NCBI GenBank assembly: GCA_944386305.1
Contig: CALXAN010000093.1
Span: forward strand, 1 to 35,054
Source of the DNA: an uncultured Clostridia bacterium
Lineage (GTDB): Bacteria > Bacillota > Clostridia > Oscillospirales > UBA644
Length of the DNA: 35,054 nt
Direction of reading: 5' to 3'
Numbering within the stretch: the stretch's first letter is position 1; every line of letters begins with the position of its first letter. Under the pieces are notes generated by a model that worked only from the letters and a program-made list of their open reading frames with translations, was not told the origin of the DNA and did no database searches. This document shows positions 18,915 to 34,357 of the stretch, piece by piece. Both the position numbers and the translations under genes were made by a program.

Positions 18915-20819
18915 TCAGTCTCCGTACGAAACGGTAAGGAACACGCCGTCTCCGGAAGGTATCTCAAGAGTATAGGTACCGTTCGCATCGGGTCTGAGCG
19001 TCGTGGCGGTGAGGCCTGCGCCGTCTGCGCCGTCCAGGTAAGCTACTACTCTCTGAGCGCCGGGCAGCTTAAAGGTGACCTCAGCCGTTCTTCTCACGGC
19101 GTAAGGATTGCGCTGATTGGATATAACGAGCGCATATCCGCTGCCGTTAGTCTCTTCGAAGCCTCCGATAGCCATATCGTAATCGGAGTCAAAATCGGTG
19201 ATTATCTGCCTGATCCACTGGGCTTCTGCGGATGTGCTCTTATAAGAAGCTATATTCTTTATATAATCCGAGGGTTCATTGCCCCTGAAGCCGACAGTGT
19301 ATTTCCAGTTATAATCCTCGTATACGGAGGATATCGAGTGGAAGTCGGAAGCAAGCTCTTTGACATAATCGAACTGCTCGGTCTTGGAAGTACCGACAAT
19401 AAGACAGCCGGAGCCTGAAACCATCCAATAATTGAACTTGGACACGCCGAACGCAAGTCCCGAATAAGCCTGATAGCGGATACCCGCCTCGCTGAGAACA
19501 TGCATACCGGTCTCAAATATATTGGAATAAGACAACATATACAGACCGTGCGATACGCCGTGGTCCCTTGCGCTCTCCGCGGTGACGTTTATACCGCCGA
19601 GATATGTGCCGGAAATGGTAGTCTTCAGTCCTGCTCCGTTGAACGGATAAGTATCCTGACATATGACCAGGGCTCCGGAACCGTCGGCATAATTGTTGAC
19701 ATAGTTGGCGTAGTTGTTAAAGGTCTGCTCGTCGTTATTGCCTATAAATACGGCAGCATAGGTCGGGAAGAGGTTGACCAAATATATCGTATCGGGATAC
19801 CACCTATGGAACAGCGAAGTCTGCCTGTTCAAATCCGAGATAACCTGCGGACCGGGCTCATCTACGCACCAGTTGCCGTAATATCCGGGATGGTTCATAT
19901 ACGAATCAGTCAGAGCGTCGGCCTGCTCCTTAGTGGCGTTGTCGGAAGCAAGCAGATTGTCAAGCTCACTGTCAAGAATGAGCGCCTTGATGCCGTATGT
20001 GCCGTAGAGCAGGTCAAGCGAAGTCCTGCTGCCGGCCTCATCCGAATGATCCCAGGGGAAGAATACCCAGTCCATGCCCAGCTCGTCTACCAGCGCGTAC
20101 TGGTTCTGCTCAAAGCTATCGTATGTACCGAAAACTATGGTATTCCTGTCGGGTATAGTGTCCTCTTTTGCAGTCCAATAAGCATAAGCCGTAATGTTCG
20201 AGGTCAGTACGGTAGAAGCAGTTACCCTTTCTCCTCCGCCGTTCTTAGCGGTATACCAGCCCCTAAACACATAGCCGCTGCGAGTAGGAGTCTCGGGCAT
20301 GACGGCATGCTCGGAGGTATCGGCCTTGACAGTCGTGGTCGAATACGAGGCGTTGGTCGCGTCGGTATTGAACGTCACGGAATACCTGCCAGTATCAGGA
20401 TTAGAGTCGCCGCCGCCGGTATTTCCGCCACCGGTATTACCGCCGTTGTTTCCGCCGCCGGTATTACCACCGTTGTTCCCGCCGCCGGTATTACCACCGT
20501 TGTTCCCGCCGGAACCGCCGTTATTACCGCCATTATTGTCTTCGCCTGATCCGTCGGGAGGATCCACCGGACCGTCTACATCCTCGTCGTCTGTATCCGG
20601 CTCAGACGTAGACGGCACAGCAGTGTCAGGTTCGGACGTGGACGGTACTTCGGGAGTCGAAGGCTCGGAAGTATCTCCAGGCTCAAGCGTAGACGGAATA
20701 TCGGGCTCGTCTGTCTGCGGAACATCATCTTTACATCCTGCGCAGAATATCAAGGCAAAAACAAGCACGGCACTGATAAGCGCCGGAAATATTCGTTTAC
20801 GAACGCTATTGTTGCACAT
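18915..20819 (-). CDS. Large lipoprotein with Gly/Asn repeat linker and InlB-type B-repeat
   Basis: This 634-residue protein has a signal peptide ending in a lipobox (FCAGC, Cys29). Then come a Ser/Thr/Pro/Asp-rich spacer (30-95), a tandem Gly/Asn/Thr linker (about 95-145, 9-residue unit NNGGNTGGG), and a Listeria-Bacteroides B-repeat domain (about 148-218, with GYVFRGWYTAKNGGGERVT ending in AYAYWT). The last ~400 residues look like a TIM-barrel-type hydrolase: DELGMDWVFFPWDHSDEAG, GIKALILDSELDN, YGNWCVDEPGP and NYWMVSGSG, with acidic residues at strand ends, followed by a small C-terminal beta domain. Distant similarity to beta-galactosidase-like folds is my guess; the substrate is unknown. 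It should be anchored outside the membrane, the linker holding the domain clear of the wall. Confidence 0.75.
   Translation of the reverse strand: MCNNSVRKRIFPALISAVLVFALIFCAGCKDDVPQTDEPDIPSTLEPGDTSEPSTPEVPSTSEPDTAVPSTSEPDTDDEDVDGPVDPPDGSGEDNNGGNNGGSGGNNGGNTGGGNNGGNTGGGNNGGNTGGGNTGGGDSNPDTGRYSVTFNTDATNASYSTTTVKADTSEHAVMPETPTRSGYVFRGWYTAKNGGGERVTASTVLTSNITAYAYWTAKEDTIPDRNTIVFGTYDSFEQNQYALVDELGMDWVFFPWDHSDEAGSRTSLDLLYGTYGIKALILDSELDNLLASDNATKEQADALTDSYMNHPGYYGNWCVDEPGPQVISDLNRQTSLFHRWYPDTIYLVNLFPTYAAVFIGNNDEQTFNNYANYVNNYADGSGALVICQDTYPFNGAGLKTTISGTYLGGINVTAESARDHGVSHGLYMLSYSNIFETGMHVLSEAGIRYQAYSGLAFGVSKFNYWMVSGSGCLIVGTSKTEQFDYVKELASDFHSISSVYEDYNWKYTVGFRGNEPSDYIKNIASYKSTSAEAQWIRQIITDFDSDYDMAIGGFEETNGSGYALVISNQRNPYAVRRTAEVTFKLPGAQRVVAYLDGADGAGLTATTLRPDANGTYTLEIPSGDGVFLTVSYGD
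20411..20540. repeat. Tandem 27-bp repeats encoding the Gly/Asn linker
   Basis: About three copies of a 27-bp unit (containing CCGCCGCCGGTATTACCACC) plus partial copies encode the Gly/Asn/Thr linker of the lipoprotein. Copies differ by a few bases; copy number could change by slippage or recombination without breaking the frame. Confidence 0.85.
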
Positions 20820-22164: not shown

Positions 22165-22204
22165 ATAAAAAGCCGAGGCCCGCACTGCAGTGCGGGCCTC
22201 GGCT
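22165..22204 (-). terminator. Terminator of the VTC/two-component operon
   Basis: The 34-base stretch 22171-22204 is a perfect palindrome (15-bp stem, 4-base loop). On the minus strand it is followed by TTTTTATATG. It lies about 125 bases past the kinase stop codon. Confidence 0.9.
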
Positions 22205-22328
22205 CGATTATCGCATTAAAAGTCCGTCATTATTACCGGATCAACCAACATATTGAATTAGCATATTTTTTATATATTCATTTGTACATAATTTTTCCCA
22301 AAAACAATGGTTCTTCCGTCAGACAGCC

Positions 22329-23912
22329 TTACGTCTCTGCCGAGGGCGGAGCCTGTTCGGTATCGCACAGCGGCAGACTGAACCAAAACCTTACCCCGTT
22401 GTCGATATTTTCCACGCCGTAAGAGCCTGAATGAGCGGTCACAATAGACTTGACTATATACAGACCCAGGCCTGCGTTCCCCTCGTCGCCTCTTGTGCGC
22501 GCCTCATCGACGCGATAGAAGCTGTCCCATATGCGCTCAAATTTCTCTTCGGGGATTCTGTCTCCGGTATTAAAGACGGAAAACACCGCTCTGCCGTCAC
22601 TTATGCTCAGCTCTGCCTCTATATATCCGCCTGCGGACACGTGCGCCACCGCATTTTGCAGATAATTCTTCATTGCCTGCTCTATATACTGAGAATTAGC
22701 CATGACAAAGCAGCCGGGCTGTACGCTGTAACGATAATCGGACGAAACTCCCTCTTTTGACGCCAGTACCTTAGTGCGTTCAAACACGACGCCGGCGACC
22801 TCGGACAAGTCTATTCTTGTCAGTTCCATAGATTTCAGCCCATGCTCGATAGCCGACACGTCGAGCATACTTTTTATCATATCATTCATCTTCGACGTCT
22901 CGTCTATTATTATATCGCAGCATGAGCCCACGTCGATGCCGGGCATATCGCGCAGCATTTCCGCATACCCGCCGATAACAGCCAACGGGCTCTTGAGGTC
23001 GTGCGAGACATTTGCGACAAATTCGCGCCGCATCTGCTCCATCTTTGCCAAACGCTCGTTGTCCTCGCTGAGGCGGCGGTTCTTTTCCATTATTTCGTTT
23101 ATAAACTGCTCGAGCTGCCGGCTCATGGAATTGACGCTTCGGGCAAGGTTGCCGATTTCGTCCTTCGAACGTTCGTCCGCGCGCATGGAAAAATCGAGGT
23201 CCGCCACGTGCCTGGCCACGATATCGACATTGCGTATAGGCCGGGTAAACCTGTCCGAAAGCACATACGCGACCGCACAGCCGAATACGAGCACGACACC
23301 CGCCACCATCGCGGACAATTTGTTAAAAGTCACGACAGAATCCTCAATAGCGGTGACAGGTGTGCTTATAAGCACATACGAATAGCTGTTTTGACTGACA
23401 GGTACGATGCCCTTCAGCGACAGTACCTTGCCGCCGGACACGGAATTGACGGACTCCTGCACCTCGGGGCTGAACGAATAGCCCCTGAACACTTCCAAAC
23501 TGATCAAGGCATAGCCGAGGACATTGAGCCCGTTGCGCTCCTCATAGAAATGGCGCAGGTTCGTCCCGTCCGGAAACGTGCCTATCCAAAGGTCAGACGA
23601 GGAAGCGCCGGAGCCCCCCGCATAACCCTGATCCATTTTGCGGCCGGTGGTATAAATGAGCTGGCCCGAAAAATCAAATATTTCTATCTGCAGGCCGTTC
23701 TTCTGCTCATAATCCGTCAGCATGGCGCTGAGCTTCTCCGAGTCCGAGGTATACCCCGAACGAATAACGTTGAAAGCCTCGTTTATGGCAGACTTTTTCT
23801 CATAAGTAAAATACGGCTCTGCGACGAAAAGATTGGCCGTTATAAGAAGTACGACAAAAACGAATACCGTCGAACCGACGATAAGCGATATCTTAGTTCT
23901 TATTGAATTCAT
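22329..23912 (-). CDS. Membrane sensor histidine kinase (HAMP, HisKA, HATPase)
   Basis: This 527-residue kinase has, in order: membrane segment 1 (about 8-30), an extracellular sensor region of about 165 residues, membrane segment 2 (about 200-220), a HAMP domain (about 220-272), a coiled stretch, HisKA with FVANVSHDLKSPLAVIGGYAE (phospho-acceptor His304) and the ATP-binding domain (N-box YLQNAVAHV, G-box GNAGLGLYIVKSI). All catalytic boxes are present. A start six bases upstream is possible, but GGAG is better spaced for the ATG at 23910-23912. The gene overlaps the response-regulator 3' end by 20 bases, so the two are coupled. The extracellular domain resembles a dCache/PAS-like sensor, but its signal is unknown. 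Confidence 0.93.
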   Translation of the reverse strand: MNSIRTKISLIVGSTVFVFVVLLITANLFVAEPYFTYEKKSAINEAFNVIRSGYTSDSEKLSAMLTDYEQKNGLQIEIFDFSGQLIYTTGRKMDQGYAGGSGASSSDLWIGTFPDGTNLRHFYEERNGLNVLGYALISLEVFRGYSFSPEVQESVNSVSGGKVLSLKGIVPVSQNSYSYVLISTPVTAIEDSVVTFNKLSAMVAGVVLVFGCAVAYVLSDRFTRPIRNVDIVARHVADLDFSMRADERSKDEIGNLARSVNSMSRQLEQFINEIMEKNRRLSEDNERLAKMEQMRREFVANVSHDLKSPLAVIGGYAEMLRDMPGIDVGSCCDIIIDETSKMNDMIKSMLDVSAIEHGLKSMELTRIDLSEVAGVVFERTKVLASKEGVSSDYRYSVQPGCFVMANSQYIEQAMKNYLQNAVAHVSAGGYIEAELSISDGRAVFSVFNTGDRIPEEKFERIWDSFYRVDEARTRGDEGNAGLGLYIVKSIVTAHSGSYGVENIDNGVRFWFSLPLCDTEQAPPSAET

Positions 23913-24600
23913 CTTCATCCACTCCGAACATATAACCGGTTCCGTGAATGGTCTTTATACACTTGCTCATTACGCCGAGCTTGGCGCGGAGCTGCTTTAT
24001 ATGCGTGTCCACTGTGCGCGGATCGCCGTTGTAGTCGTAGCTCCACACTGCGTTGAGTATTTGATCTCTCGAAAGCACAAGCCCCTTGTTGGATACAAGA
24101 TAGTGGATAAGATCAAACTCTTTCTGAGTAAGAGCTATGGTCTTGTCCTCTATCCTGACGTTCTTGGAAAGATTATTTATCACCATCGGTCCGCATTCGA
24201 TTTTGTCGTTGCGGTTCTTCATAGAAGTGCGGCGTATTACCGAATTTATACGCGCAAGCAGAACCGAAGGCGAAAAGGGTTTGCTGACATAGTCGTCGGC
24301 GCCCGCGCGGAAGCCCGCCAGCTGGTCGTACTCCTCGTCCTTTGCCGTAACAAGTATAACCGGGACCATGGACGCGGCGCGCAATTCGGCCAGCACAGAC
24401 AGCCCGTCTCTGTGCGGGAGCATAACGTCCAGCAGGATCAGGTCTATGCGGTTACTGTTCTTATAGAACTCGTCCAGGGCCGTCTGACCGTCGGCGGCCT
24501 CAAGGACGTCGAAACCGTTCCCGCGCAGGAATATGCTCACCATCTGTCTTATGCGGTTGTCGTCGTCCACTACCAATACAGTGTCTTTTGTTGCACTCAT
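23893..24600 (-). CDS. OmpR/PhoB family response regulator
   Basis: The 235-residue product has a receiver domain (LVVDDDNRIRQM; phospho-acceptor Asp58 in LILLDVMLP; switch Lys in VTAKDEEYD) and an OmpR-type winged helix (about 135-230; ALTQKEFDLIHYLV, LSRDQILNAVW, VDTHIKQLRAKLG, IHGTGYMFG). A longer frame to 24645 is rejected: the ATG at 24598-24600 has GAGGTG upstream and overlaps the DUF4956 stop codon (ATGA). It should be phosphorylated by the kinase encoded immediately downstream, and it may control this same operon, whose promoter lies at 26102-26130. Confidence 0.96.
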   Translation of the reverse strand: MSATKDTVLVVDDDNRIRQMVSIFLRGNGFDVLEAADGQTALDEFYKNSNRIDLILLDVMLPHRDGLSVLAELRAASMVPVILVTAKDEEYDQLAGFRAGADDYVSKPFSPSVLLARINSVIRRTSMKNRNDKIECGPMVINNLSKNVRIEDKTIALTQKEFDLIHYLVSNKGLVLSRDQILNAVWSYDYNGDPRTVDTHIKQLRAKLGVMSKCIKTIHGTGYMFGVDEDEFNKN

Positions 24601-25271
24601 ATCATGCTCACCTCGCTTACCTCGTCTATCACAGAACTGATGCATACCGTAAGATTACCGTTGCGGCAGCGTATTTTGTCGATAAATTCTTTTTCTTTTT
24701 TAGGATCCTTAAGATTGATTCGATATGTAAGCTCATACATACTGCCCAAATTGGTGGTCTTGCTGCGGACCAGCATGACCGAAGAGGCATATTCGTTGAA
24801 TATATCGTCGAACACCTCGTTGTAGTTGAGATTCTCCGGGATAAGGATTTTAAGCTGCCGCTGCTGCAGTCTGCCCTCCCCGTACCTCGTCTTGGTCACC
24901 AACAGGAATACGGCGCACACTATGACGGTAAAAATGGCGGCAAGCACCAAATATCCCGTACTAGTCACAAGCCCTATGCCCATGGCGAAAAACACATACG
25001 CCACTTCTTTGGCGCTTGCGGGTGCGGAACGAAAACGGATAAGGCTGAACGCTCCCGCAATGGCGATGCCGATGCTGAGATTGTCATTGACCATCATTAT
25101 TACCCATTGCACCAGCACGGGCATGATGACCAGGGCCACGGCCATGCTCTTGCTGCATCTGCCGTGAAACATATATACCACCGATATCAGGAACCCGAGA
25201 ACGATAGAGACTCCCGTAGACATAAGAATGGCGGAAAGCGTAACCCCATTATCCAAAACAGATGACAACAT
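24597..25271 (-). CDS. DUF4956 family membrane protein
   Basis: This 224-residue protein has about four membrane segments in its first 120 residues and a soluble cytoplasmic C-terminal half. The segment MPVLVQWVIMMVNDNLSIGIAIAGAFSLIRFRSAP is highly characteristic of DUF4956 (the AGAFSLIRFRS stretch). DUF4956 proteins are typically encoded beside VTC-domain proteins, and that is so here: the ATG follows the VTC stop by two bases and its ribosome binding site lies in the VTC 3' end. Its role is unknown; a membrane partner or channel for polyphosphate made by the VTC protein is a reasonable inference. The C-terminal half looks like a small alpha/beta ligand-binding domain. Confidence 0.92.
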   Translation of the reverse strand: MLSSVLDNGVTLSAILMSTGVSIVLGFLISVVYMFHGRCSKSMAVALVIMPVLVQWVIMMVNDNLSIGIAIAGAFSLIRFRSAPASAKEVAYVFFAMGIGLVTSTGYLVLAAIFTVIVCAVFLLVTKTRYGEGRLQQRQLKILIPENLNYNEVFDDIFNEYASSVMLVRSKTTNLGSMYELTYRINLKDPKKEKEFIDKIRCRNGNLTVCISSVIDEVSEVSMI

Positions 25272-25273
25272 TT

Positions 25274-25996
25274 CTATATTATCCTTTCAATCTCTCTTTT
25301 ATACAGCCTGCCGTACTTGGTAAAAGTGCCCTTGTATATATGCAGTTCGGACAGCATCCTTACCAGCCACAGCGGGAAAGAATCGCAGCCTTTCAGCTCC
25401 ATTACATATTTATAGCCGAAGTCATACGGTTCGCAGCCCTCAAGGCTACCGAGAGTAAGATTGGTCGTACGGCTGCGGATATTGCTGTCGAAAGTTATAC
25501 GCATGTTCCGGTCGCTTCTGTCAAAAAAAGCAGCCCTGTCGTAGGCGACGAACATAGCCGGCCTTATACCGTGAAAATGCACGAAATAATCTATCTCGTT
25601 AAATCTCTGCATGTGCTCTTGGCGGACCGGAGGGACAACCCCGTCTATCAGATAATCCTCCGCCTGCTGCAGTGTCAGGGAAATACGCCGCTTGTACACT
25701 ATCCTGTCGTATTTCTTCTTTATCTCCATAAAGACCATGCTGTCCGCATCCGGCACGCCGTAGCTCCTCAGCCGCAGCTTCTCTTTATACAAAGGCTTAT
25801 CTATAGACATTCTTATAAGGTCGTTGTCGGAAGTGTCGTAATACATATTGCAGATCGTGGTCAATCCGTGCACGTCGGGTATCGTGTGCGGCCTGATATA
25901 CGACATTATCATCCTGTATTTGTCCTCGTCAAGGAGGTATTTATACTCAAAACGCTTAAAGACCATACCGCAAGATGAGTCCTGTGGCATGTACAT
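25274..25996 (-). CDS. VTC-domain polyphosphate polymerase-like protein
   Basis: This 240-residue cytoplasmic protein matches the VTC catalytic tunnel domain, which in yeast Vtc4 polymerises the gamma phosphate of ATP into polyphosphate. Evidence: FKRFEYKYLL (residues 13-22, a conserved Glu/Lys strand), YDTSDNDL, KLRLRSYG (basic strand binding phosphate), MEIKKKYDRIVYKRR, and KYVMELKGC near the C-terminus. These Arg/Lys/Glu residues on successive beta strands are the hallmark of this tunnel fold. There is no SPX domain. It is the first gene of a four-gene operon. AGGCGGG lies just before the ATG at 25994-25996; an internal ATG two codons later is also possible. Confidence 0.93.
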   Translation of the reverse strand: MYMPQDSSCGMVFKRFEYKYLLDEDKYRMIMSYIRPHTIPDVHGLTTICNMYYDTSDNDLIRMSIDKPLYKEKLRLRSYGVPDADSMVFMEIKKKYDRIVYKRRISLTLQQAEDYLIDGVVPPVRQEHMQRFNEIDYFVHFHGIRPAMFVAYDRAAFFDRSDRNMRITFDSNIRSRTTNLTLGSLEGCEPYDFGYKYVMELKGCDSFPLWLVRMLSELHIYKGTFTKYGRLYKREIERII

Positions 25997-26101
25997 CTCA
26001 CCCGCCTTTCAGTATTCGGGACGATACACATCTGATTTTATACAGTATATGATATACATGTGTGCTGTTTGTGATGCATATATCATAAGCAGACTTTTTA
26101 T

Positions 26102-26130
26102 AGTCTACCATATATGTATCGGCGTGTCAA
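26102..26130 (-). promoter_or_regulatory. Promoter of the VTC/DUF4956/two-component operon
   Basis: On the minus strand, TTGACA (26125-26130), 17 bases, TAGACT (26102-26107). It would give an untranslated leader of about 100 bases, long enough for regulation, although no known riboswitch fold is recognised. Confidence 0.75.
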
Positions 26131-26235: not shown

Positions 26236-26538
26236 GTGGGAAAACAGATTACGTACAACAATCGAGTTGCAATTGAGCGGCTGTGGAATTCAGGCAAGAC
26301 ATATAAAGAGATAAGTCAAGAGTTAGGCGTCAGCTATTCGTGCATATATCACGATATTCAAATGTGCGGCGGCCAAACAGACGAAGCGGGCCGCGTAATA
26401 TATTCCGCAGACAAGAGACAAAAGATATTGGACACGGGGCGGGCATGGGACAGGTCGCGCATCGACTGGAAATCCCGCAACGCTAAAATGCTGCAAACAA
26501 GGCGAAAAAATGAATCCGAACGCAAAAGAACACGGTAA
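26236..26538 (+). CDS. Small helix-turn-helix protein, phage-like
   Basis: The 100-residue product opens with an HTH: ITYNNRVAIERLWNSGKTYKEISQELG and then VSYSCIYHDIQ, resembling the HTH_38/IS30-type N-terminal domain. The rest is very basic (KSRNAKMLQTRRKNESERKRTR). The start is GTG at 26236, with AAAGGAAG seven bases upstream. No transposase catalytic domain follows, so it is a stand-alone DNA-binding protein, probably a phage regulator, or the surviving N-terminus of a larger gene. It is the first gene of the plus-strand phage-like block and may mark its left end. Confidence 0.7.
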   Translation: MGKQITYNNRVAIERLWNSGKTYKEISQELGVSYSCIYHDIQMCGGQTDEAGRVIYSADKRQKILDTGRAWDRSRIDWKSRNAKMLQTRRKNESERKRTR

Positions 26539-26913
26539 TAGCCTCAAAACCAGGACAAGCCTTATAGGCGCATCGGATGCCGGAATAATAACATGATATA
26601 GTACGAAAATCGATATGCAGCATTAATGCAGCCGTTTTGCCCTGAACGCGAGGACAAGCATGAAGTCAGTATATCATTACATACATAGCGGACGAAAAGC
26701 TATCTTTAAGATATGTTTCCGCCCGGCGCCGATTGGATTCGGCTGTGATTGAAGATTTCCGAATTTACCTGAAACCTCAAGGCCCCAGCCGAAGAGCAAA
26801 CTAGATAAGACCATACATTAGCATTAAACAACGAAGAGGCAGACGCACAAAAAACGCGCTCAAACTGACTATAGCCGCCAAAGACGGCAAACGCAGAAAA
26901 ATTCATAAAATAC
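26539..26913 (+). other. Degenerate stretch without an intact gene
   Basis: All three plus-strand frames are broken by stops. A short frame from the ATG at 26659 (about 30 codons) has no recognisable product. It looks like decayed phage coding sequence. Confidence 0.5.
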
Positions 26914-27123
26914 ATGCAGCCTTATCAGACGTTCGAGGCAGCGGCGCTCACGGCTGCAAAACCTATGGGACGGGACAGCAAAAAACACAAATCATTAAAG
27001 GCTATTATCGACAACGTATCTTTTACTTTAGCTTTAAAGGCTGAATCCGACTCGGAAGCGTCCGACTCACTGCCGACGATTGCGGACTTTTCGGACATTG
27101 AAGACAAGGATTTGCCTTTTTAA
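26914..27123 (+). pseudogene. Possible remnant of an SSB-like protein (C-terminal acidic tip)
   Basis: This 69-residue frame ends in DFSDIEDKDLPF, like the acidic D-L-P-F tail that single-stranded-DNA-binding proteins use to recruit repair and replication partners. The rest (KAIIDNVSFTLALKAESDSE) shows no clear OB-fold, and there is no ribosome binding site before the ATG. If it is SSB-derived, the N-terminal OB-fold is gone. A phage SSB would fit beside a replisome organizer. It could also be a chance ending. Confidence 0.35.
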
Positions 27124-27725
27124 TATAAAGACCCGGCCGGCAGTATGTCCTCTGCGCTGCCCCTGAAGATAAACTGTCAAACGCCTGACGAGGATATGAT
27201 ACGCCCCGAGGGACGACGGCTGTGCAGACGAATACTGTGTGAATGCTTTGCGGCGGGAAACGGCGCATACCCCCCACTGAGGACGACGGATGCGTCCGCG
27301 CTGTCAAAGCGGCTCCCCTTTTGAGGACGACGGAGCTAATCGAATATTTTACAGTTTAGATTTTAAGACTTTTCAACTGTGGAAACTGTTGAAATCTATT
27401 TACAACATTCACATTTGGCAAAAAGTCAGAAAATGTAAACCGACCTCGTTTACTCAAAACGCAAATAATGCTTTAAAATCAGGCTTTTTGCTCCCAAACA
27501 AGCGCAAAGCCCGCAGCAGTGGAAAACTTTTTCGCTCAAAAGAAAAACGAGAGAAAAACGAAAGAGACAAAAACGAAAACAAGAAAAAGAAGCAAAAAGA
27601 AAAAAAGCTAAAACAGAGAAAGAAAAAAGAGAGAAAAAAATAAAATACCCCACCCTGAAGCGCGCAGGCGCACACGCGAGAAATGAGTAAAAGCCGCGCT
27701 GCATCGTGGAATACGGAGGTTATGA
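27124..27725 (+). other. Degenerate stretch with short repeats and a purine-rich tract
   Basis: This ~600-bp stretch contains two exact copies of GAGGACGACGGA (27279-27290, 27323-27334) and a variant at 27208, an AT-rich segment with a 7-bp inverted repeat near 27371, and a purine-rich tract (27527-27643). A 117-residue frame across it has no ribosome binding site and ends in a lysine-rich run from the purine tract, so I do not call it a gene. Confidence 0.5.
27527..27643 (+). repeat. Purine-rich low-complexity tract
   Basis: Nearly all bases over about 115 positions are A or G on the plus strand, with short A-runs and GAGA/AAAC motifs. Such a tract can form unusual DNA structures or be decayed Lys/Glu/Arg-rich coding sequence. 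Confidence 0.8.
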
Positions 27726-27728
27726 GTG

Positions 27729-27923
27729 ATGATAACGTTGATTGTCGGTTTAGGCTGCTTGGTTATAGGCCTAATTGCAGGATATATCTTTGACGCATGC
27801 ATAGTGCGAAATCCCACAGTAACGAGGCTTAAAGCCCGAAAGAAAAAATCGGACGACCTTGCGTTGAGAACCCTCGACGCATACGAGAAAAACATCGCTT
27901 ACGTTTACGGACAGAGGCGGTAA
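27729..27923 (+). CDS. Small single-pass membrane protein, unknown
   Basis: The 64-residue product starts MITLIVGLGCLVIGLIAGYI, one membrane helix (about 2-22), followed by a charged cytoplasmic helix (LKARKKKSDDLALRTLDAYEKN). GGAGG at 27715-27719 gives nine bases to the ATG at 27729; a GTG three bases earlier is also possible. I do not recognise the family. Similar small membrane proteins are common in the early regions of Firmicutes phages. Confidence 0.6.
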   Translation: MITLIVGLGCLVIGLIAGYIFDACIVRNPTVTRLKARKKKSDDLALRTLDAYEKNIAYVYGQRR

Positions 27924-27940
27924 ACGATATGTCGGCATAG

Positions 27941-28093
27941 ATCCCGGGGAAAAGGTCGGAGATATCGGACCTGCGCAGGGACGGATACAATATACAAAGT
28001 GAATTTGAAACAGTAAAAAACAGGTTCGGAGAAAACGTGTCGTATAAAAGATACAGGCTTAATGCCGGCAGAAAGGATTACATATGGCGGTAA
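27941..28093 (+). pseudogene. C-terminal fragment of an HTH protein (HTH_39-like)
   Basis: The frame following a TAG at 27938-27940 encodes 50 residues, including EISDLRRDGYNIQSEFE and VSYKRYRLN. This is the recognisable C-terminal part of a phage helix-turn-helix family (HTH_39 type), in which a domain-organising helix pair precedes this region. No start codon is present and the N-terminal HTH is missing. It ends ten bases into the replisome organizer gene, an overlap that suggests the two were once coupled. Confidence 0.65.
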
Positions 28094-28713
28094 ACTGCAT
28101 ACTTCTTTCGGTCCATACGATGAAGAGCCGCAAGATAAGACAGATGCGCAAACTGAGCCGCGGCCCCGAATTAATCAACATATGGATATCGCTTTTGTGT
28201 CTTGCGGGCGAGTCCGGCGATTCAGGCTATCTGTACATGGCCGACGACGTACCATATACCGTAGAAACGCTGTCTATTGAATTGGAGTACGACGCCGGGC
28301 TCATAGCCGAGGCAATAACGCTTTTTCTGTCATGGAAAATGATAGCGTTAGACCGCGGAGCGATACGGCTCATGTCGTGGGACAAGTACCAAAACAGCGA
28401 CAACGTACCTCCATCAGCCAAAGCGAAGCGCAAAAAAACGCAGAACATACGCAAGCAGGCGGTAAAACGCATAGAAGTGGAGCCGAGCGAATTATCCCCT
28501 GAGGATACCGTATCCCCGCTGGGAGGACTGGGCAAAAACTTAGTATATCTGTCCGATGCGCAAATGGGAGACCTGCTGGACCGCATGGACGTCAATACGT
28601 TTGACAAATATATAGGCATCGTAGCGCAGCAGATAGAAATGGGACGTACGGTCAAGAATGCGTATAACCTTATACTGCGAATGGCTACAGAGGACGGTGT
28701 TATAAAAAAATGA
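28084..28713 (+). CDS. Phage replisome organizer (N-terminal domain family)
   Basis: This 209-residue protein matches the phage replisome organizer N-terminal domain in residues 13-110: SRKIRQMRKLSRGPELINIW, LLCLAGESGDSGYLYMADDVPYTVETL and the WDKYQN motif. These proteins bind phage origins and load the host helicase. The C-terminal part (KAKRKKTQNIRKQAVKRI, then an acidic stretch) differs from the usual DnaD-like tail. AAAGGAT gives good spacing to the ATG at 28084; MKSRKI at 28120 is an alternative start. It overlaps the next gene by four bases (ATGA). It looks intact although its neighbourhood is decayed. Confidence 0.85.
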   Translation: MAVNCILLSVHTMKSRKIRQMRKLSRGPELINIWISLLCLAGESGDSGYLYMADDVPYTVETLSIELEYDAGLIAEAITLFLSWKMIALDRGAIRLMSWDKYQNSDNVPPSAKAKRKKTQNIRKQAVKRIEVEPSELSPEDTVSPLGGLGKNLVYLSDAQMGDLLDRMDVNTFDKYIGIVAQQIEMGRTVKNAYNLILRMATEDGVIKK

Positions 28714-28970
28714 GGACAAGCGATTCTTGTAACGTCGATGTTAAATGTCCTTTTTTCATAAGCCTGAAAGGCGCAAATATAATGTGCAGGAGCATACCGG
28801 GGACAAAATTTAAAATCATGTTCGAAAAGACGGGAATGCTGTCCTCGTCGGAAAAAGCTGTGGAGCACCTCAGGCATTACTGCTACGAAATACAGGACAT
28901 CAATGACCCAGAATGCTGCCCTTTATTTGCAGCGCTGTGGCGACTGTGGGAGGTAAAACATAATGATTAG
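28710..28970 (+). CDS. Small Cys/His-rich phage protein
   Basis: The 86-residue product has regularly placed cysteines (KCPFF at 12-16, ANIMCRS, HYCYEI, PECCPLF), a pattern seen in small phage proteins that probably bind a zinc ion. It likely acts in gene regulation or replication, but I do not recognise the exact family. Its ATG overlaps the stop of the replisome organizer by four bases, so both are made from one message. It ends EVKHND. Confidence 0.7.
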   Translation: MRTSDSCNVDVKCPFFISLKGANIMCRSIPGTKFKIMFEKTGMLSSSEKAVEHLRHYCYEIQDINDPECCPLFAALWRLWEVKHND

Positions 28971-29078
28971 TTACTGCTCGAGGTTACAAAAAGCGATTTT
29001 TCTGACATTATATAAAATGGGAGACGGTTTTCAAGTGCTTAAACTCCCGCTGAATATATAAATAAAGGAGAGAAAAAG

Positions 29079-29369
29079 ATGTCTAAAATCAACTGGAGCG
29101 TAAGGCTCCGCAATCCCATGTTTTGGCTCACTGCCATACCTGCGGTCATATCGTTTGTGTACAGCATTTTGAGCCTGTTCGGCATTGTGCCGCAGATAGC
29201 GGAAAGCACCGTTGTAAGCGCGGTATCTACGATAATATCCGCGCTGACCGCGCTCGGCGTGCTCGTAGACCCCACGACCAAAGGCGTAACAGACAGCCCG
29301 AGGGCGCTGACCTACGCACAGCCCTATGAATCTACGCCGGAAGGAGAATATACCGATGCTGACGAATAA
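29079..29369 (+). CDS. Phage holin, phi-LC3 family
   Basis: The 96-residue product starts MSKINWSVRLRNPMFWLTAI, the signature of the phi-LC3 holin family, with two membrane segments (about 14-36 and 43-62) and an acidic C-terminus. Holins form pores that release the endolysin to the cell wall. GGAGAGAAAAAG precedes the ATG. The next gene, the endolysin, starts inside its 3' end (14-base overlap) with its own AAGGAG, as in lysis cassettes. Confidence 0.95.
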   Translation: MSKINWSVRLRNPMFWLTAIPAVISFVYSILSLFGIVPQIAESTVVSAVSTIISALTALGVLVDPTTKGVTDSPRALTYAQPYESTPEGEYTDADE

Positions 29370-30102
29370 AGATTTAGCGGATTTCTGCCTTAACAAGGCT
29401 ACCCATGTCTCCTCAAAATATATGTGGGGAGATTACGGCCGCACCATTACCAACACTACCATAGACCAAAAGGCCAAGCAATATCCTACAAGATATTCTG
29501 CCAGCCGAATAGCCGAGCTTAAAAAATGCACCAACGGCTACTGGATAGGCTGCGACTGCGCGGGCCTAATAAAATGGTTCTTGTGGACGGACAAAGGCGC
29601 GCACGATATCAGGTATAATTCCAAGACCGACCGCAACACGGGCGGGCTGTGGAACTGCGCCACGAGCAGAGGCACAATAGACACGCTGCCCGAAGTGCCG
29701 GGCATGATACTGTACAAAACGGGACATGTCGGCGTATACATAGGCGGCGGCAACGCCGTCGAATGCACGCTCGGCAGCTACGGAGACGGTATAGTACAGT
29801 CTAAGGTCAGCGGACGCGGCTGGACGCACTGGCTCACCATACCCGATATACAGTACGTCTACGACAATACGGACGATCTGCCTCAGGTCGGAGACGTCGT
29901 GACGTATACGGGCGACGTGCACTACACCAACGCCAACGCCGTCACAGGCAAAAGCTGTAAAGGCGGCACGGCCAAGCTCACGCAGATATACAAGCTCGGA
30001 CAGTCAAGGCACCCCTATCACCTGATATATGTCAAGGGTTCGGGCGCTACCGTGTACGGCTGGGTCGACGCGGATAAAGTGAAAAAGATAAATTCACTTT
30101 AA
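29356..30102 (+). CDS. Phage endolysin, NlpC/P60-like amidase or endopeptidase
   Basis: The 248-residue product has a cysteine-peptidase fold: catalytic Cys68 in GCDCAGLIKW and His124 in KTGHVGVYIG, with the conserved GGGNAVECT strand following. It cuts peptidoglycan peptides. The last ~70 residues (DLPQVGDVVTYTGDVHYTNA, then ATVYGWVDADKVKK) look like an SH3-like wall-binding domain. The ATG at 29356 has AAGGAG ten bases upstream; an earlier in-frame start is inside the holin and is not used. It lacks a signal peptide, as expected for a holin-dependent lysin. The gene appears intact. Confidence 0.93.
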   Translation: MLTNKDLADFCLNKATHVSSKYMWGDYGRTITNTTIDQKAKQYPTRYSASRIAELKKCTNGYWIGCDCAGLIKWFLWTDKGAHDIRYNSKTDRNTGGLWNCATSRGTIDTLPEVPGMILYKTGHVGVYIGGGNAVECTLGSYGDGIVQSKVSGRGWTHWLTIPDIQYVYDNTDDLPQVGDVVTYTGDVHYTNANAVTGKSCKGGTAKLTQIYKLGQSRHPYHLIYVKGSGATVYGWVDADKVKKINSL

Positions 30103-30567
30103 GTAAAAATAATGCTGTAAAAAAATGGGCATTTTTTTCAAAAACGTATTAGAAAAAACATATACAAACATGCTATACTGACATCGGAAAACAATTAAAA
30201 TATGCACTTTCAAACAGATGAAGGGAATTTCATCCCGCAGACCGGAGCGTGTCAAGCCAAAGCAACGGGACACAATGAGTCCTGTTATTGACCTGCGCGG
30301 AATTCAATCTGCGCCACTGATATGCTCTAAGCGTCAGCGGAAATTTTCCGCAATGGCTTCAATATTTAAGCGCATCAAAGACCACCGCACAGGTCAATGA
30401 AGCATTCTAAAAAACTTACGCGGCAGCGTTACCATGCCCAAGCGCGAATTTCTCAACGGCATGACCGCCTGGCATAGAAAAAAAATACTGAACAACGTCG
30501 CCCGTTTTCGGCAATGCTGGACGATATGAGAGTGACCAAGATTTTGTAACCCGGAGGAGGGTTAAAC
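30103..30567 (+). other. Decayed stretch between lysin and XhlA-like gene
   Basis: A short A/T inverted repeat (around 30124-30139) follows the lysin and could be a weak terminator. A possible extended -10 promoter lies at 30171-30179. The rest holds short broken frames, including one starting MPKREFLNGMTAWHRKKILN near 30435, that resemble no intact protein. Confidence 0.5.
30149..30179 (+). promoter_or_regulatory. Possible extended -10 promoter
   Basis: TGCTATACT (30171-30179) with TTAGAA 19 bases upstream. It could drive the downstream phage genes; the spacing is loose. Confidence 0.35.
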
Positions 30568-30795
30568 ATGCCCATAGAAACAGTCGTGACGTACCTGATT
30601 ACGCTTGTAACGTTCGGTATAGCCGTAGCGACGCCCATAATCAAACTCAACACCAATATAGCCCGGCTCAACTGCACCATATCCGAGCTGACGCATGAGA
30701 TGAACAAAACCGACGAACGGCTTGACTCTCACAGCAGCCAGCTCAACGACCACGAGCACCGTATAACTATCCTGGAAGAGCACAAGAAAGATTAA
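30568..30795 (+). CDS. XhlA-like phage membrane protein
   Basis: The 75-residue product has one N-terminal membrane segment (about 5-25) and a heptad-patterned coiled coil (LNTNIARLNCTISELTHEMN, DERLDSHSSQLNDHEHRITIL). This is the layout of XhlA/hemolysin-like phage proteins that accompany holins; in those the coiled coil faces the cytoplasm. GGAGGAGGG is well placed before the ATG. Unusually, it lies 465 bases past the endolysin, separated by decayed sequence. Confidence 0.75.
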   Translation: MPIETVVTYLITLVTFGIAVATPIIKLNTNIARLNCTISELTHEMNKTDERLDSHSSQLNDHEHRITILEEHKKD

Positions 30796-31005
30796 GCTAT
30801 AAGTAAAAATTTAAAATGGCTCCGATTAAAAAGCGGCGGTATGCAGAAACGCACCAACAAAATCAATGCCGGTACCTAAAGGCTGGAGTTTTTTGCGCCG
30901 TAAAAGAAAATGCGCAAGTACGGGCAGACCAAATTCTATGAACACATGATACCCTCGCCGAACCGACTCAAACTATAGCCTCTAAAACCGAAAGGAGTAT
31001 GTACA
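30796..31005 (+). other. Decayed stretch before the first virion-like gene
   Basis: Short broken frames (for example RKYGQTKFYEHMIPSPNRLK, interrupted by stops on both sides) suggest a vanished phage gene. GGAGTAT at the right end serves the gene starting at 31006. Confidence 0.4.
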
Positions 31006-31581
31006 ATGGCATTCGTTATAACTAAAGAAATGATTGAAAAAGCAAACACATATATGCCGATAGAGGAAAAGATATCCCTTTCCAAAATTATCGCGGAGAA
31101 ATGCGTGGATATTATCCCTCAGTCGCACAAGAACCCAGTGTCAGACAGAGCAAATAAGATGTTGTCGCTGCCTCTGCCCGAGGGCGAGCTGCCGTCGCTG
31201 AAGTCCATGCTGACCCTGTCCGTGCTGCTCGGATTTTATCTCGACATAGATATAGACACGGAGAACAAAAACGCGATGACTTTCGCCTCCTATGACGAAT
31301 ATGCAAACTCGCACCCGCTCAATCAGCTTGACAGGCTCAAGAGCAACGCAGAGCTTCGGGATAAGGTCTACGACCTTGTCGCTGACTTTAAAGAGTTTAA
31401 GAAAATGGTAGATACGGAGATATACAATATCCGCACCTACCGCAACGACCCGCTGGTACGCCTTGCCGCGACTGTCGGCCTGTATTTGACCAAAGAGAAT
31501 TTGGCCAAACTCAAAGACAATCTCTCTGAGATGACTAAACAGTTGCAGCAGACGCAGGCCCAAGAGAAAACGGAGGAATGA
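31006..31581 (+). CDS. Phage protein of unknown function
   Basis: This 191-residue protein begins MAFVITKEMIEKANTYMPIE and is mostly helical, with a C-terminal coiled coil (LAKLKDNLSEMTKQLQQ). I do not recognise it. The gene lies one base before the next, in the same frame orientation and with good ribosome binding (GGAGTATGTACA), so it is part of the virion-like operon. A role as a scaffolding or connector-type protein is conceivable from its position, but no motif supports it. Confidence 0.7.
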   Translation: MAFVITKEMIEKANTYMPIEEKISLSKIIAEKCVDIIPQSHKNPVSDRANKMLSLPLPEGELPSLKSMLTLSVLLGFYLDIDIDTENKNAMTFASYDEYANSHPLNQLDRLKSNAELRDKVYDLVADFKEFKKMVDTEIYNIRTYRNDPLVRLAATVGLYLTKENLAKLKDNLSEMTKQLQQTQAQEKTEE

Positions 31582-31582
31582 T

Positions 31583-32299
31583 ATGCCCGACGCCGTATCC
31601 CCGTACTACCCGTACTTTAAAGTGCAGGACGGGTATTACGATCTATCCGAATCGATAGACATACCCAAAAAGATATGCGACTATCTCTTAGACGCTCCGT
31701 CAGCCGGATATGCGCCCGCGGACGACAACAGTTATCCCCGCGCGCGGCTGTGGAAATACCTGTATTATGACGGCGAAAACCCGCTCGGTGAAACATTGCC
31801 GACGATTCAGCAGAAGACGAGCGTACTGTTCGACCCCGAGCGGCCCGAAGATCCGCCCACGGACAAGGGCTACAGGCTTATCCCGCAGAAATATGCCAAA
31901 CAGTCTCAGGACATAGCGCAGACCCGCATACATGTCTATATGGGCCGCACCGTGCCCGGCAACGAGGAATTTAATATATCACTGGGAATCTCTTTCAATA
32001 TTTGGACTCACTATACCTATGAGTTTAACGCCAAACCCGACGCATACAGCCGTGTATTCGCCATAGAACAGGCCCTTATAGAGGCTCTGCACGGCGTGAA
32101 TATGTCGGGAATAGGCACATTTTTCTTTTCCAAGCTCAAACACCCCGACTGCGGCAGCAACGCCGTGTCCGACGACAATGCCAACGTCGGACGCGAACTG
32201 ACCGTAGCGCTGGAGTTAGCGGCCCCAGCGGACAGGAATATGCCCGAAACCTATAATATGCCGACGGACGGCATAAACAGCAACGTGCATATTTTTTGA
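31583..32299 (+). CDS. Phage protein, possibly a head-tail or tail-terminator component
   Basis: The 238-residue protein is beta-rich. A stretch ISLGISFNIWTHYTYEFN, followed by RVFAIEQALIEALHGVNMSGIG, resembles the strand-helix arrangement of phage head-tail connector or tail-terminator proteins that use a conserved SGIG turn; this is a tentative reading. GGAGG lies in the 3' end of the preceding gene, with only one base between stop and start. The gene is complete and ends SNVHIF. Confidence 0.65.
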   Translation: MPDAVSPYYPYFKVQDGYYDLSESIDIPKKICDYLLDAPSAGYAPADDNSYPRARLWKYLYYDGENPLGETLPTIQQKTSVLFDPERPEDPPTDKGYRLIPQKYAKQSQDIAQTRIHVYMGRTVPGNEEFNISLGISFNIWTHYTYEFNAKPDAYSRVFAIEQALIEALHGVNMSGIGTFFFSKLKHPDCGSNAVSDDNANVGRELTVALELAAPADRNMPETYNMPTDGINSNVHIF

Positions 32300-32413
32300 G
32301 CAGCCGAAACGAAAAAGCGGAAGAAGCAATGTTACAAAAAATATCGAGCCGCCGAAAAAGACAAAGAATAACGGAGGCATGATATATATTCCGGCAAAGG
32401 AGAAAAAAACACA
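32300..32413 (+). other. Decayed gap between virion-like genes
   Basis: A 114-base gap with a short broken frame (MLQKISSRRKRQRITEA). GGAG at its right end serves the gene starting at 32414. Confidence 0.4.
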
Positions 32414-33229
32414 ATGTCCCAGTCTTTGCAGGACCGTAAAACTTTGATTCGGAGCGGACAACCCATAGAAGTGCTCCAATTGACGTTTTACCCCATCACA
32501 ATGGCGCAATACGACGAATATCTGCTGTGCAGGGAGGCCTTGTCTCTGAGGCTGGCAGCCCTACCTGTTGAGTACGCGTTTATGGATTATCTGTCCGCTT
32601 TGTGGGCCGCCGAGGTCGACGCCGTAAAGACCCGCAACGTAAGGGTAGGATTATTCGAGTGCGCGCTGAGATTAATGTACATGTCTTTGCGGATAGACTA
32701 TGACATAACCGAAGCGTTGCGCAATATTAAGCTGAAGCAGACGAACGGCCGGCTTGATATAGAGTATTTGTCGATAACCCAAAACGGAAACACCGTACGC
32801 ATCACCCCGCATGTATTTTCCATGCAGATACGTCCGCTGCTGGCGGAGATGAACGGGATAGAACTGCCCGACGAGTCGCATAACATAGACCTTGTGGAAT
32901 CGAACGAACAGCTCAAACGGCTCAAAAGCTCCGGCATACCCCTCAAGGTCAGCACCGACGACCTCATAGCGTCCGTGGCGTACCTGACCCATACGCCGAT
33001 AAGAAACATATACGGCTGGACGGTCAGGGATTTTGAGCTCCTGCGCAGGGCCATAGACCGCGACAAGCACTACATGCTCTACGCTCAGGCCGAGATGTCG
33101 GGCATGGTCAAGTTCAATAAGGGCAACCCGTTCCCGTCATGGTGCTACGATGTATCCGACGATTCCTACGGCACAATGGCTCTTTCGGAGCTGCAAAGCC
33201 GTATGGGACAAGCTGAACAAAAAACATAA
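32414..33229 (+). CDS. Phage protein of unknown function, tail-assembly position
   Basis: The 271-residue protein is mixed alpha/beta. Notable stretches are IEVLQLTFYPITMAQYDEYL, HTPIRNIYGWTVRDFELLRR and the C-terminal KGNPFPSWCYDVSDDSYGT. I do not recognise a family. It lies just upstream of the Ig-domain tail-like protein, where tail-assembly proteins are often encoded, so a tail-assembly role is plausible but unproven. The start codon at 32414 has GGAG ten or so bases upstream. It appears intact. Confidence 0.65.
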   Translation: MSQSLQDRKTLIRSGQPIEVLQLTFYPITMAQYDEYLLCREALSLRLAALPVEYAFMDYLSALWAAEVDAVKTRNVRVGLFECALRLMYMSLRIDYDITEALRNIKLKQTNGRLDIEYLSITQNGNTVRITPHVFSMQIRPLLAEMNGIELPDESHNIDLVESNEQLKRLKSSGIPLKVSTDDLIASVAYLTHTPIRNIYGWTVRDFELLRRAIDRDKHYMLYAQAEMSGMVKFNKGNPFPSWCYDVSDDSYGTMALSELQSRMGQAEQKT

Positions 33230-33244
33230 CAAAGGAGAATTACC

Positions 33245-34357
33245 ATGAATGCAATCACATTAGGTTCACCCAATCTCTTCGTCAAAGGCGTGGTAGAGGC
33301 TATCGTAACCGACCCCGCGACGGGCAATATCATAGGCTATGATACCGTAGCGTCCGAGAGCGCGATAACTTCCTCCATCAACCTGGGCGAAGTCACGGGC
33401 GGCTTCGGCAACCCCCTGCTCATCAATATCCCCGATACCACGCGTATCACGGGTACTCTCACGTCTCAGGCGTTTTCCATGCAGCAGAGAGCTCTCATTT
33501 CGGGCGGCTCGATAAGCTACAACGCCGTCAGCCGCGTATGCGAGACCATAGAGGCTACGGGCACGGCTCTCACCGTTACCCGTGCTCCCGCTTTGGCCTA
33601 CGGGCAGAGCGCGTCCGACACTGAGGGCTGGTGCTACGTCAGGGAGCACGGCTCGGACAGCTTTATAGGCACAAACTACGGCGTAGACCTGGTGTCCAAG
33701 ACCGTGTCCGGCTTCGTCGCTACGTCCGGCAAGAGCTACGACGTGATTTATTTCACACCGCTTACCTCGTCCGAGGCCCTCGCTCTGCCGACGATGTTCA
33801 ACCCCACCGTGGCTACTATCAGCCTCAAATTCGGCGTATACGCCAAGCAGAACAACTCCGTGTCCAACGGCACTCTGCAGGGCTACGTGTACTTTATCGT
33901 GCCCCGCGCCCAGTTTACCGGCGACGTCGGCCTGTCCGCCAATCAGACGGGCAACGCCACTACGGCCTATGACTGGACTGCACTGTCGCCCGACAGCGCT
34001 GTAATGGCCTGCAGCGACTGCAGCAGCACCGGCGAGGGCTACGCCTACTATGTGTACGTCCCCTGCGCGGGCTCAGCCTCTGCTGTTAAGGCTTTGGCCG
34101 TATACGGCGCGGGCGTATCCGTAGCGGTAGACGGCACGGCGCAGGTGCCCGTGGTATATATCATGGACAACGGCTCTGTACTCACTCCTACATATACCGA
34201 CCTGGAATATGTGTCCGAGACCCCGGGAACCGCCACCGTCTCGGAGAGCGGCCTGGTAACGGGCGTGGCTCAGGGCGACACCGAGGTCACCGTCACTCTG
34301 CAGAAGAGCGACTCGGAGACCCTCACCGCCGTCTGCAACGTAACCGTCACAGCCTGA
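33245..34357 (+). CDS. Major tail-like virion protein with C-terminal Ig-like (BIG2) domain
   Basis: This 370-residue protein is beta-rich and high in Ser/Thr/Gly/Ala. Its last ~75 residues (VSVAVDGTAQVPVVYIMDNG, then ATVSESGLVTGVAQGDTEVTVT) match the BIG2 bacterial Ig-like fold that decorates many Firmicutes phage tail tubes. The N-terminal part (LGEVTGGFGNPLLINIPDTTRITGTLTSQAF) looks like a tube-forming domain. GGAG precedes the ATG. It is more GC-rich than its flanks and uses more C-ending codons (for example ACC, GCC), as expected for a highly expressed structural gene. It is the last intact phage gene here. Confidence 0.75.
   Translation: MNAITLGSPNLFVKGVVEAIVTDPATGNIIGYDTVASESAITSSINLGEVTGGFGNPLLINIPDTTRITGTLTSQAFSMQQRALISGGSISYNAVSRVCETIEATGTALTVTRAPALAYGQSASDTEGWCYVREHGSDSFIGTNYGVDLVSKTVSGFVATSGKSYDVIYFTPLTSSEALALPTMFNPTVATISLKFGVYAKQNNSVSNGTLQGYVYFIVPRAQFTGDVGLSANQTGNATTAYDWTALSPDSAVMACSDCSSTGEGYAYYVYVPCAGSASAVKALAVYGAGVSVAVDGTAQVPVVYIMDNGSVLTPTYTDLEYVSETPGTATVSESGLVTGVAQGDTEVTVTLQKSDSETLTAVCNVTVTA

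Follow-up and report, generated by a model that had tools for sequence, protein, structure and literature searches.

Is a bacterial VTC-DUF4956 gene pair controlled by a two-component system of its own? The question is raised by a locus in an uncultured Clostridia bacterium (assembly GCA_944386305.1, 1.62 Mb in 129 contigs, 85% complete; genome G000), in which the genes for a VTC-domain protein, a DUF4956 membrane protein, an OmpR-type response regulator and a HAMP sensor histidine kinase follow each other on contig CALXAN010000093.1. The whole stretch of 35,054 nt that was analysed is called the window below. With a probability of roughly 60%, we read the locus as a self-contained, autoregulated operon, in which a predicted VTC polymerase and an MgtC-like DUF4956 protein are tied to a dedicated two-component system (TCS). 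This reading is based on comparison with two related operons, L084 in genome G173 and L085 in genome G103, and on a promoter element that the three have in common.

A four-gene operon with a shared promoter element

The operon comprises the following features:

25274..25996, minus strand: VTC-domain protein of 240 aa and predicted polyphosphate polymerase, encoded first in the operon (PF09359, E 5e-40)
24597..25271, minus strand: DUF4956 membrane protein, 224 aa (PF16316, E 2.6e-16)
23893..24600, minus strand: OmpR-type response regulator (Response_reg PF00072 and Trans_reg_C PF00486)
22329..23918, minus strand: HAMP sensor histidine kinase with an extracytoplasmic domain, alternative start at 23912 (HAMP PF00672, HisKA PF00512, HATPase_c PF02518)
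26043..26074, minus strand: predicted operator-promoter, direct repeat TCACA-N7-CACA with an 11-bp period, then 9 bases and the -10 box TATACT, 46 bp 5' of the VTC start
26102..26130, minus strand: alternative sigma-70-like promoter TTGACA-17-TAGACT, weak evidence, not common to L084 and L085
22170..22205, minus strand: intrinsic terminator of the operon, 16-bp stem and T-run, -38.5 kcal/mol, z = -7

An earlier, sequence-only reading of the window had described four tightly coupled genes with a palindromic terminator. We found all four at the place it gave, each with a clear Pfam match and with the spacings it had claimed, and a strong hairpin at 22170-22205. Two bases separate the VTC stop (25274) from the DUF4956 start (25271), the DUF4956 and regulator genes overlap in ATGA, the ATG at 24600 being the likely regulator start, and the regulator and kinase genes overlap by 20 or 26 bases, depending on whether the ATG at 23912 or at 23918 is chosen. 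As to the single upstream promoter of that reading, the sigma-70-like sequence at 26130-26102 is not clearly above chance (ten promoter-like matches across the region versus 6.8 expected), but a better supported promoter with an operator was found at 26074-26043.

The four-gene arrangement is not a product of chance, because two other genomes have the same order, and their kinase and regulator are the nearest relatives of those in the window. Among 197 genomes of the order, the top two kinase matches (46-50% identity) are those of G173 and G103, both encoded in VTC-DUF4956-regulator-kinase operons with an order identical to that of the window, in genomes belonging to another family than G000. 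The closest relatives of the regulator, with up to 61% identity, are found in the same two loci, and the operon in G173 is followed by a Cthe_2159 gene. The 18 further kinase relatives, with at most 40% identity, are not near VTC.

In all three operons, TCACA-N7-CACA-N9-TATA(A/C)TG is located 24-46 bp 5' of the VTC start, where it replaces the -35 box. Direct repeats with an 11-bp period are typical of operators of OmpR-type regulators. Across the three operons 18 of 32 columns are identical, the maximum in 2000 dinucleotide shuffles being 14; this three-way test alone is not decisive, because the G173 and G103 sequences come from the same genus and are alike, and because pairwise comparison of the window promoter with either of them is only borderline (p ~0.05). 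The G173/G103 consensus is also present directly upstream of the regulator genes of stand-alone relatives of the pair. When a matrix was trained on these stand-alone promoters and on those of G173 and G103, with the window excluded, the site in the VTC promoter ranked first among 70,046 positions in the window. The case for the predicted promoter draws its strength from the three-way match together with this separately trained matrix. The strict pattern has a single occurrence in each of G000, G103 and G173, before the VTC operon, and likewise in G169 and in G179, where it precedes the stand-alone system. The presence of the shared element before VTC points to an operon that would be autoregulated and under the control of its TCS.

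The element is not restricted to operons of this type. Among 104 held-out VTC promoters it exceeded the 99.9th shuffle percentile in seven (0.1 expected; at most one in 100 shuffled sets), and adjacent pairs are absent from all ten loci that lie above the 99th percentile (L118, L120, L130, L131, L142, L161, L177, L181, L186 and L031). As a lead, VTC genes with the element but without an adjacent pair may be under distant control by a related regulator. Tracing such a regulator gave mixed results: in G205 and G207 weak matches to the element lie upstream of the best-matching regulator relatives, while others have none. The same direct-repeat element was found at two genes for FtsX-like permeases (L090:2446-4039 and L213:3-1532, the latter on contig C45 of G103); these permeases may be further targets of regulators from this family. 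Their association with the element in L090 and G103 makes an envelope signal plausible, although on thin grounds.

Type and descent of the two-component pair

The receiver and winged-helix domains, HAMP, HisKA with its histidine and HATPase were all found in regulator and kinase, and the phospho-acceptor H306 of the kinase is invariant. Its structure model has a pLDDT of 75, with residues 94-142 disordered. An identity as PhoPR was rejected, the NCBIfam equivalog scores being too low (PhoB 202/296 bits, PhoR 165/334 bits). All NCBIfam equivalog scores of the pair are far under the cut-off, and no pst genes were recognised next to those of its relatives that were examined.

The window pair and those of G173 and G103 form one clade with support of 100/98 in the regulator tree and 100/100 in the kinase tree. 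The sister of this clade is a stand-alone system (100/97 and 99/97, respectively), and in both trees the clade is nested among stand-alone systems, separate from the main VTC-linked clade. The window pair seems to be an independent recruitment, distinct from the lineage that usually accompanies VTC. Since the stand-alone sequences were picked for their closeness to the window, the trees support at least two recruitments and give no exact number. A clade of the window with G173 and G103 is not recovered in the VTC and DUF4956 trees, which do not reject it either (approximately unbiased test, p 0.30 and 0.62). The shared promoter element suggests that a stand-alone, self-regulating pair was recruited along with its operator, and that it now drives VTC-DUF4956 and itself. 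The proposal that VTC-DUF4956 is controlled by its own kinase gains from the shared element and from the occurrence of the same operon elsewhere, but the pair is not of the lineage usual beside VTC.

Two-component systems at other VTC loci

A census was taken of 80 VTC loci that are related and come from named genomes, with 8-kb flanks. DUF4956 adjoins VTC in 76 of them, in line with the earlier statement that such pairs recur in bacteria. The same statement had CotH-like proteins as frequent partners, and this needs qualification, as CotH was found in 5/80 loci and the usual neighbour is Cthe_2159 (52/80). The flanks contain 21 complete two-component pairs, 18 of which lie within 1 kb of VTC (binomial p 2e-11; 12 upstream on the same strand, six divergent), but the loci are kin and this count therefore implies more independent events than there were. 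Adjacent pairs are also known in the window's own family. Adjacency of two-component pairs, for which the sequence-only reading had proposed a search across Clostridia, is thus far above chance, and the same operon exists elsewhere; on the other side, about three quarters of the VTC-DUF4956 loci have no adjacent pair. Apart from the window, this order with a downstream position of the pair was seen only in G173, G103 and, with Cthe_2159 interposed, L189. In summary, the VTC-DUF4956(-Cthe_2159) module occurs widely among Clostridia, often with a TCS of another lineage.

At four loci (L036, L038, L046 and L047) a Cthe_2159-type gene, a highly divergent regulator and a second divergent histidine kinase lie between the pair and VTC. 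This insert resembles an additional two-component pair in altered form.

The predicted polymerase and its membrane partner

The PF09359 match of the VTC protein (E 5e-40) spans positions 1-229 of the 235 in the profile, and a profile built from 16 VTC proteins matches the yeast Vtc4 chains in the PDB with E 1.5e-19. To map residues on Vtc4, numbers in the profile alignment were shifted by an offset of 3, with which the known R264, R266 and E426 come out correctly. R15, K19, R75, R77, E91, K93, K102, R154, R166, E200 and K227 of the window protein correspond to R196, K200, R264, R266, E279, K281, K294, R361, R373, E426 and K458 of Vtc4, and these tunnel and metal residues are invariant in 16 aligned proteins from both VTC subfamilies. 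They include R75, R77 and E200, the equivalents of the set R264A/R266A/E426N that inactivates yeast Vtc4 (PMC9911596). Loss of tunnel residues had been named as an observation that would speak against the sequence-only reading; because every checked Vtc4 residue is conserved, polymerase activity is likely. The protein consists of the VTC domain only (240 aa), without the SPX or fused membrane domain of the eukaryotic VTC complex. No relative of it was found in the viral contigs scanned.

The DUF4956 protein matches PF16316 with 60.2 bits (gathering threshold 30.6). In its AlphaFold2 model (pLDDT 80), transmembrane helices at the N-terminus precede a C-terminal domain of the ACT/ferredoxin-like type, and a PDB fold search, which covered the ACT-like C-terminus, gave matches at Z ~9. 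Alignment by hhalign to MgtC proteins from relatives of G000 gave Prob 98 and E 2e-13 over 184 columns, while an unrelated membrane family used as a control gave Prob 1. No direct PF02308 (MgtC/SapB) match was obtained for the protein or anywhere in G000. By remote homology and its ACT-like C-terminus, we classify DUF4956 as a predicted remote relative of MgtC. The link to MgtC had been noted before: in 2025 the streptococcal homologue, SIR_1592 of S. intermedius, was described as combining an MgtC transmembrane domain with an ACT domain, and its deletion increases Pel and decreases aggregation (PMC12345266). MgtC of Salmonella promotes phosphate uptake (PMC6658541).

Proposed mode of action

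Judging from the domains, the kinase would sense an extracytoplasmic condition and phosphorylate the OmpR-type regulator. The regulator would then bind the TCACA-N7-CACA repeat before VTC and activate the whole operon including its own gene, as comparative sequence analysis suggests. The conserved residues suggest that VTC polymerises the gamma-phosphate of ATP to polyphosphate at the inner face of the membrane. DUF4956 would keep VTC membrane-bound; it may also export the chain or exert regulation via its ACT-like domain. More generally, and with odds somewhat short of even, we tentatively propose a clostridial counterpart of the eukaryotic VTC synthase-translocase, in which a triphosphate tunnel metalloenzyme (TTM) polymerase and its MgtC-like partner make and export polyphosphate, the switches are TCSs that were recruited independently at least twice, and one regulator family controls VTC from inside the operon or, where the operator is present without an adjacent pair, from a distance.

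Several observations weigh against the autoregulated operon. Beside the borderline pairwise promoter comparison and the large share of loci with no adjacent pair, there are VTC promoters without the element in genomes that carry stand-alone relatives of the window pair; several VTC loci in such genomes have a neighbouring pair or kinase instead. The free VTC tree does not group the window with L084 and L085. Further, PPK1 is also encoded in G000, and VTC would therefore be dispensable for bulk polyphosphate. Finally, we infer, from sequence, each of polyphosphate synthesis, its export and the binding of the regulator to DNA.

Alternative explanations

The module could serve an extracellular polymer or adhesin, with polyphosphate or phosphate groups from VTC-DUF4956 modifying or modulating a surface polysaccharide or a Cthe_2159/CotH protein, and with the TCS as an envelope or biofilm switch. 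In line with this, cotH, a polyphosphate polymerase and DUF4956 are the accessory set of streptococcal and clostridial Pel loci (PMC7112168), the SIR_1592 deletion described above affects Pel and aggregation, and Cthe_2159 is the frequent neighbour of VTC and lies downstream of the L084 operon. However, the window operon has no Pel, CotH or Cthe_2159 gene next to it, Cthe_2159 and CotH genes being located on other contigs, and for the deletion of the polymerase gene SIR_1593 no change in aggregation is reported in the available part of PMC12345266. We regard this explanation as rather unlikely.

It is still less probable that the pair is a general envelope-stress system which landed behind VTC-DUF4956, has FtsX-type permeases or others as its true targets, and has VTC as a passenger. 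Its closest relatives are indeed mostly stand-alone with varied neighbours, the sister system in L090 is followed by an FtsX-like permease gene that carries the element at its start, and G103 has just one further site, with one mismatch, likewise directly before an FtsX-like permease gene. Nevertheless, conservation of the four-gene order extends over two bacterial families, the strict pattern stands before VTC and nowhere else in G000, G103 and G173, and adjacency of a TCS to VTC recurs with other lineages. Similarly, we give little credence to the idea that the VTC protein is another TTM, such as a tri- or polyphosphatase or a nucleotide-dependent enzyme, and makes no polyphosphate. TTM enzymes do run diverse reactions in one tunnel fold (PMC4641920), no direct assay of any bacterial VTC protein was found in the literature searched, and the genome already has PPK1; the family match to VTC and Vtc4 chains, the conservation of all checked Vtc4 polymerase residues and the constant membrane partner, which parallels the synthase-channel arrangement in yeast, argue for a polymerase.

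Genomic surroundings

The neighbours of the operon in the window are a large lipoprotein-like gene, a DUF5640 gene and a prophage. The prophage-like genes (26236-34357, plus strand) begin just past the VTC promoter on the opposite strand and comprise HTH/transposase-like genes, a replisome organizer, a holin (29079-29369), an endolysin-like gene and structural/tail-like proteins. In the lipoprotein-like protein (18915-20819, minus strand, 634 aa), the only parts assigned are a Gly/Asn-rich linker and one List-Bact repeat (PF09479). Neither tRNA genes nor Rfam families were found in the window.

Other contigs of G000 harbour one PPK1 gene, Cthe_2159 genes and several CotH genes. Another VTC-DUF4956 pair, which belongs to a distant subfamily and has DUF4956 first, is located on contig C64 (L028:1522-2977; L002:1486-2941). 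It has no adjoining two-component pair, and its nearest relative is in G014 (~58-61% identity).

Relation to known systems

The window operon resembles the yeast VTC complex (Vtc4 with the Vtc1/Vtc3 channel) in the TTM/VTC domain, in the tunnel and metal residues and in the pairing of the polymerase with a membrane protein. In contrast to yeast, it has no SPX domain or fused transmembrane helices, its partner is MgtC-like DUF4956 and not Vtc1, and its proposed control is transcriptional via a TCS, while the yeast complex is controlled by inositol pyrophosphates. The domain make-up of the pair and an operator of direct repeats with an 11-bp period are shared with PhoB/PhoR-, MtrA- and WalK-type systems, from which the pair is set apart by its low equivalog scores.

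With the cotH-PPP-DUF4956 genes of Gram-positive Pel loci (PMC7112168, PMC12345266) the operon shares a VTC-type polymerase gene adjoining a DUF4956/MgtC-ACT gene; it differs in having no pel and no adjacent CotH gene and in its in-operon TCS. Assignment as a Pel-locus accessory cluster was rejected, as no pel or cotH gene was recognised beside the operon and there is no contiguity with pelDEADAFG and cotH. In PMC12345266 the three-gene set is reported not to have been found outside Pel loci, whereas VTC-DUF4956 in our census, in which pel genes were not checked, is widespread and mostly with Cthe_2159. In NELoc-2 of C. perfringens, a VTC-'tubulin'-VTC-'tubulin'-CotH cluster, each VTC gene is likewise followed by one for a membrane-predicted protein of ~225 aa (PMC2879425). 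Unlike the window, the listed cluster has no two-component pair. The ~225-aa proteins are presumably DUF4956 proteins.

VTC-DUF4956 pairs and their Pel/CotH context are thus already known (PMC7112168, PMC12345266, PMC2879425). In the literature searched we found neither a dedicated TCS for VTC, its operator or its repeated recruitment, nor a report on enzymatic function or control of bacterial VTC-DUF4956. The study of bacterial polyphosphate is dominated by PPK enzymes, while VTC-DUF4956 is common in Clostridia. The predicted operator, its cognate regulator and a movable four-gene unit would make VTC-type polyphosphate production or secretion in bacteria, and the signal behind it, directly testable.

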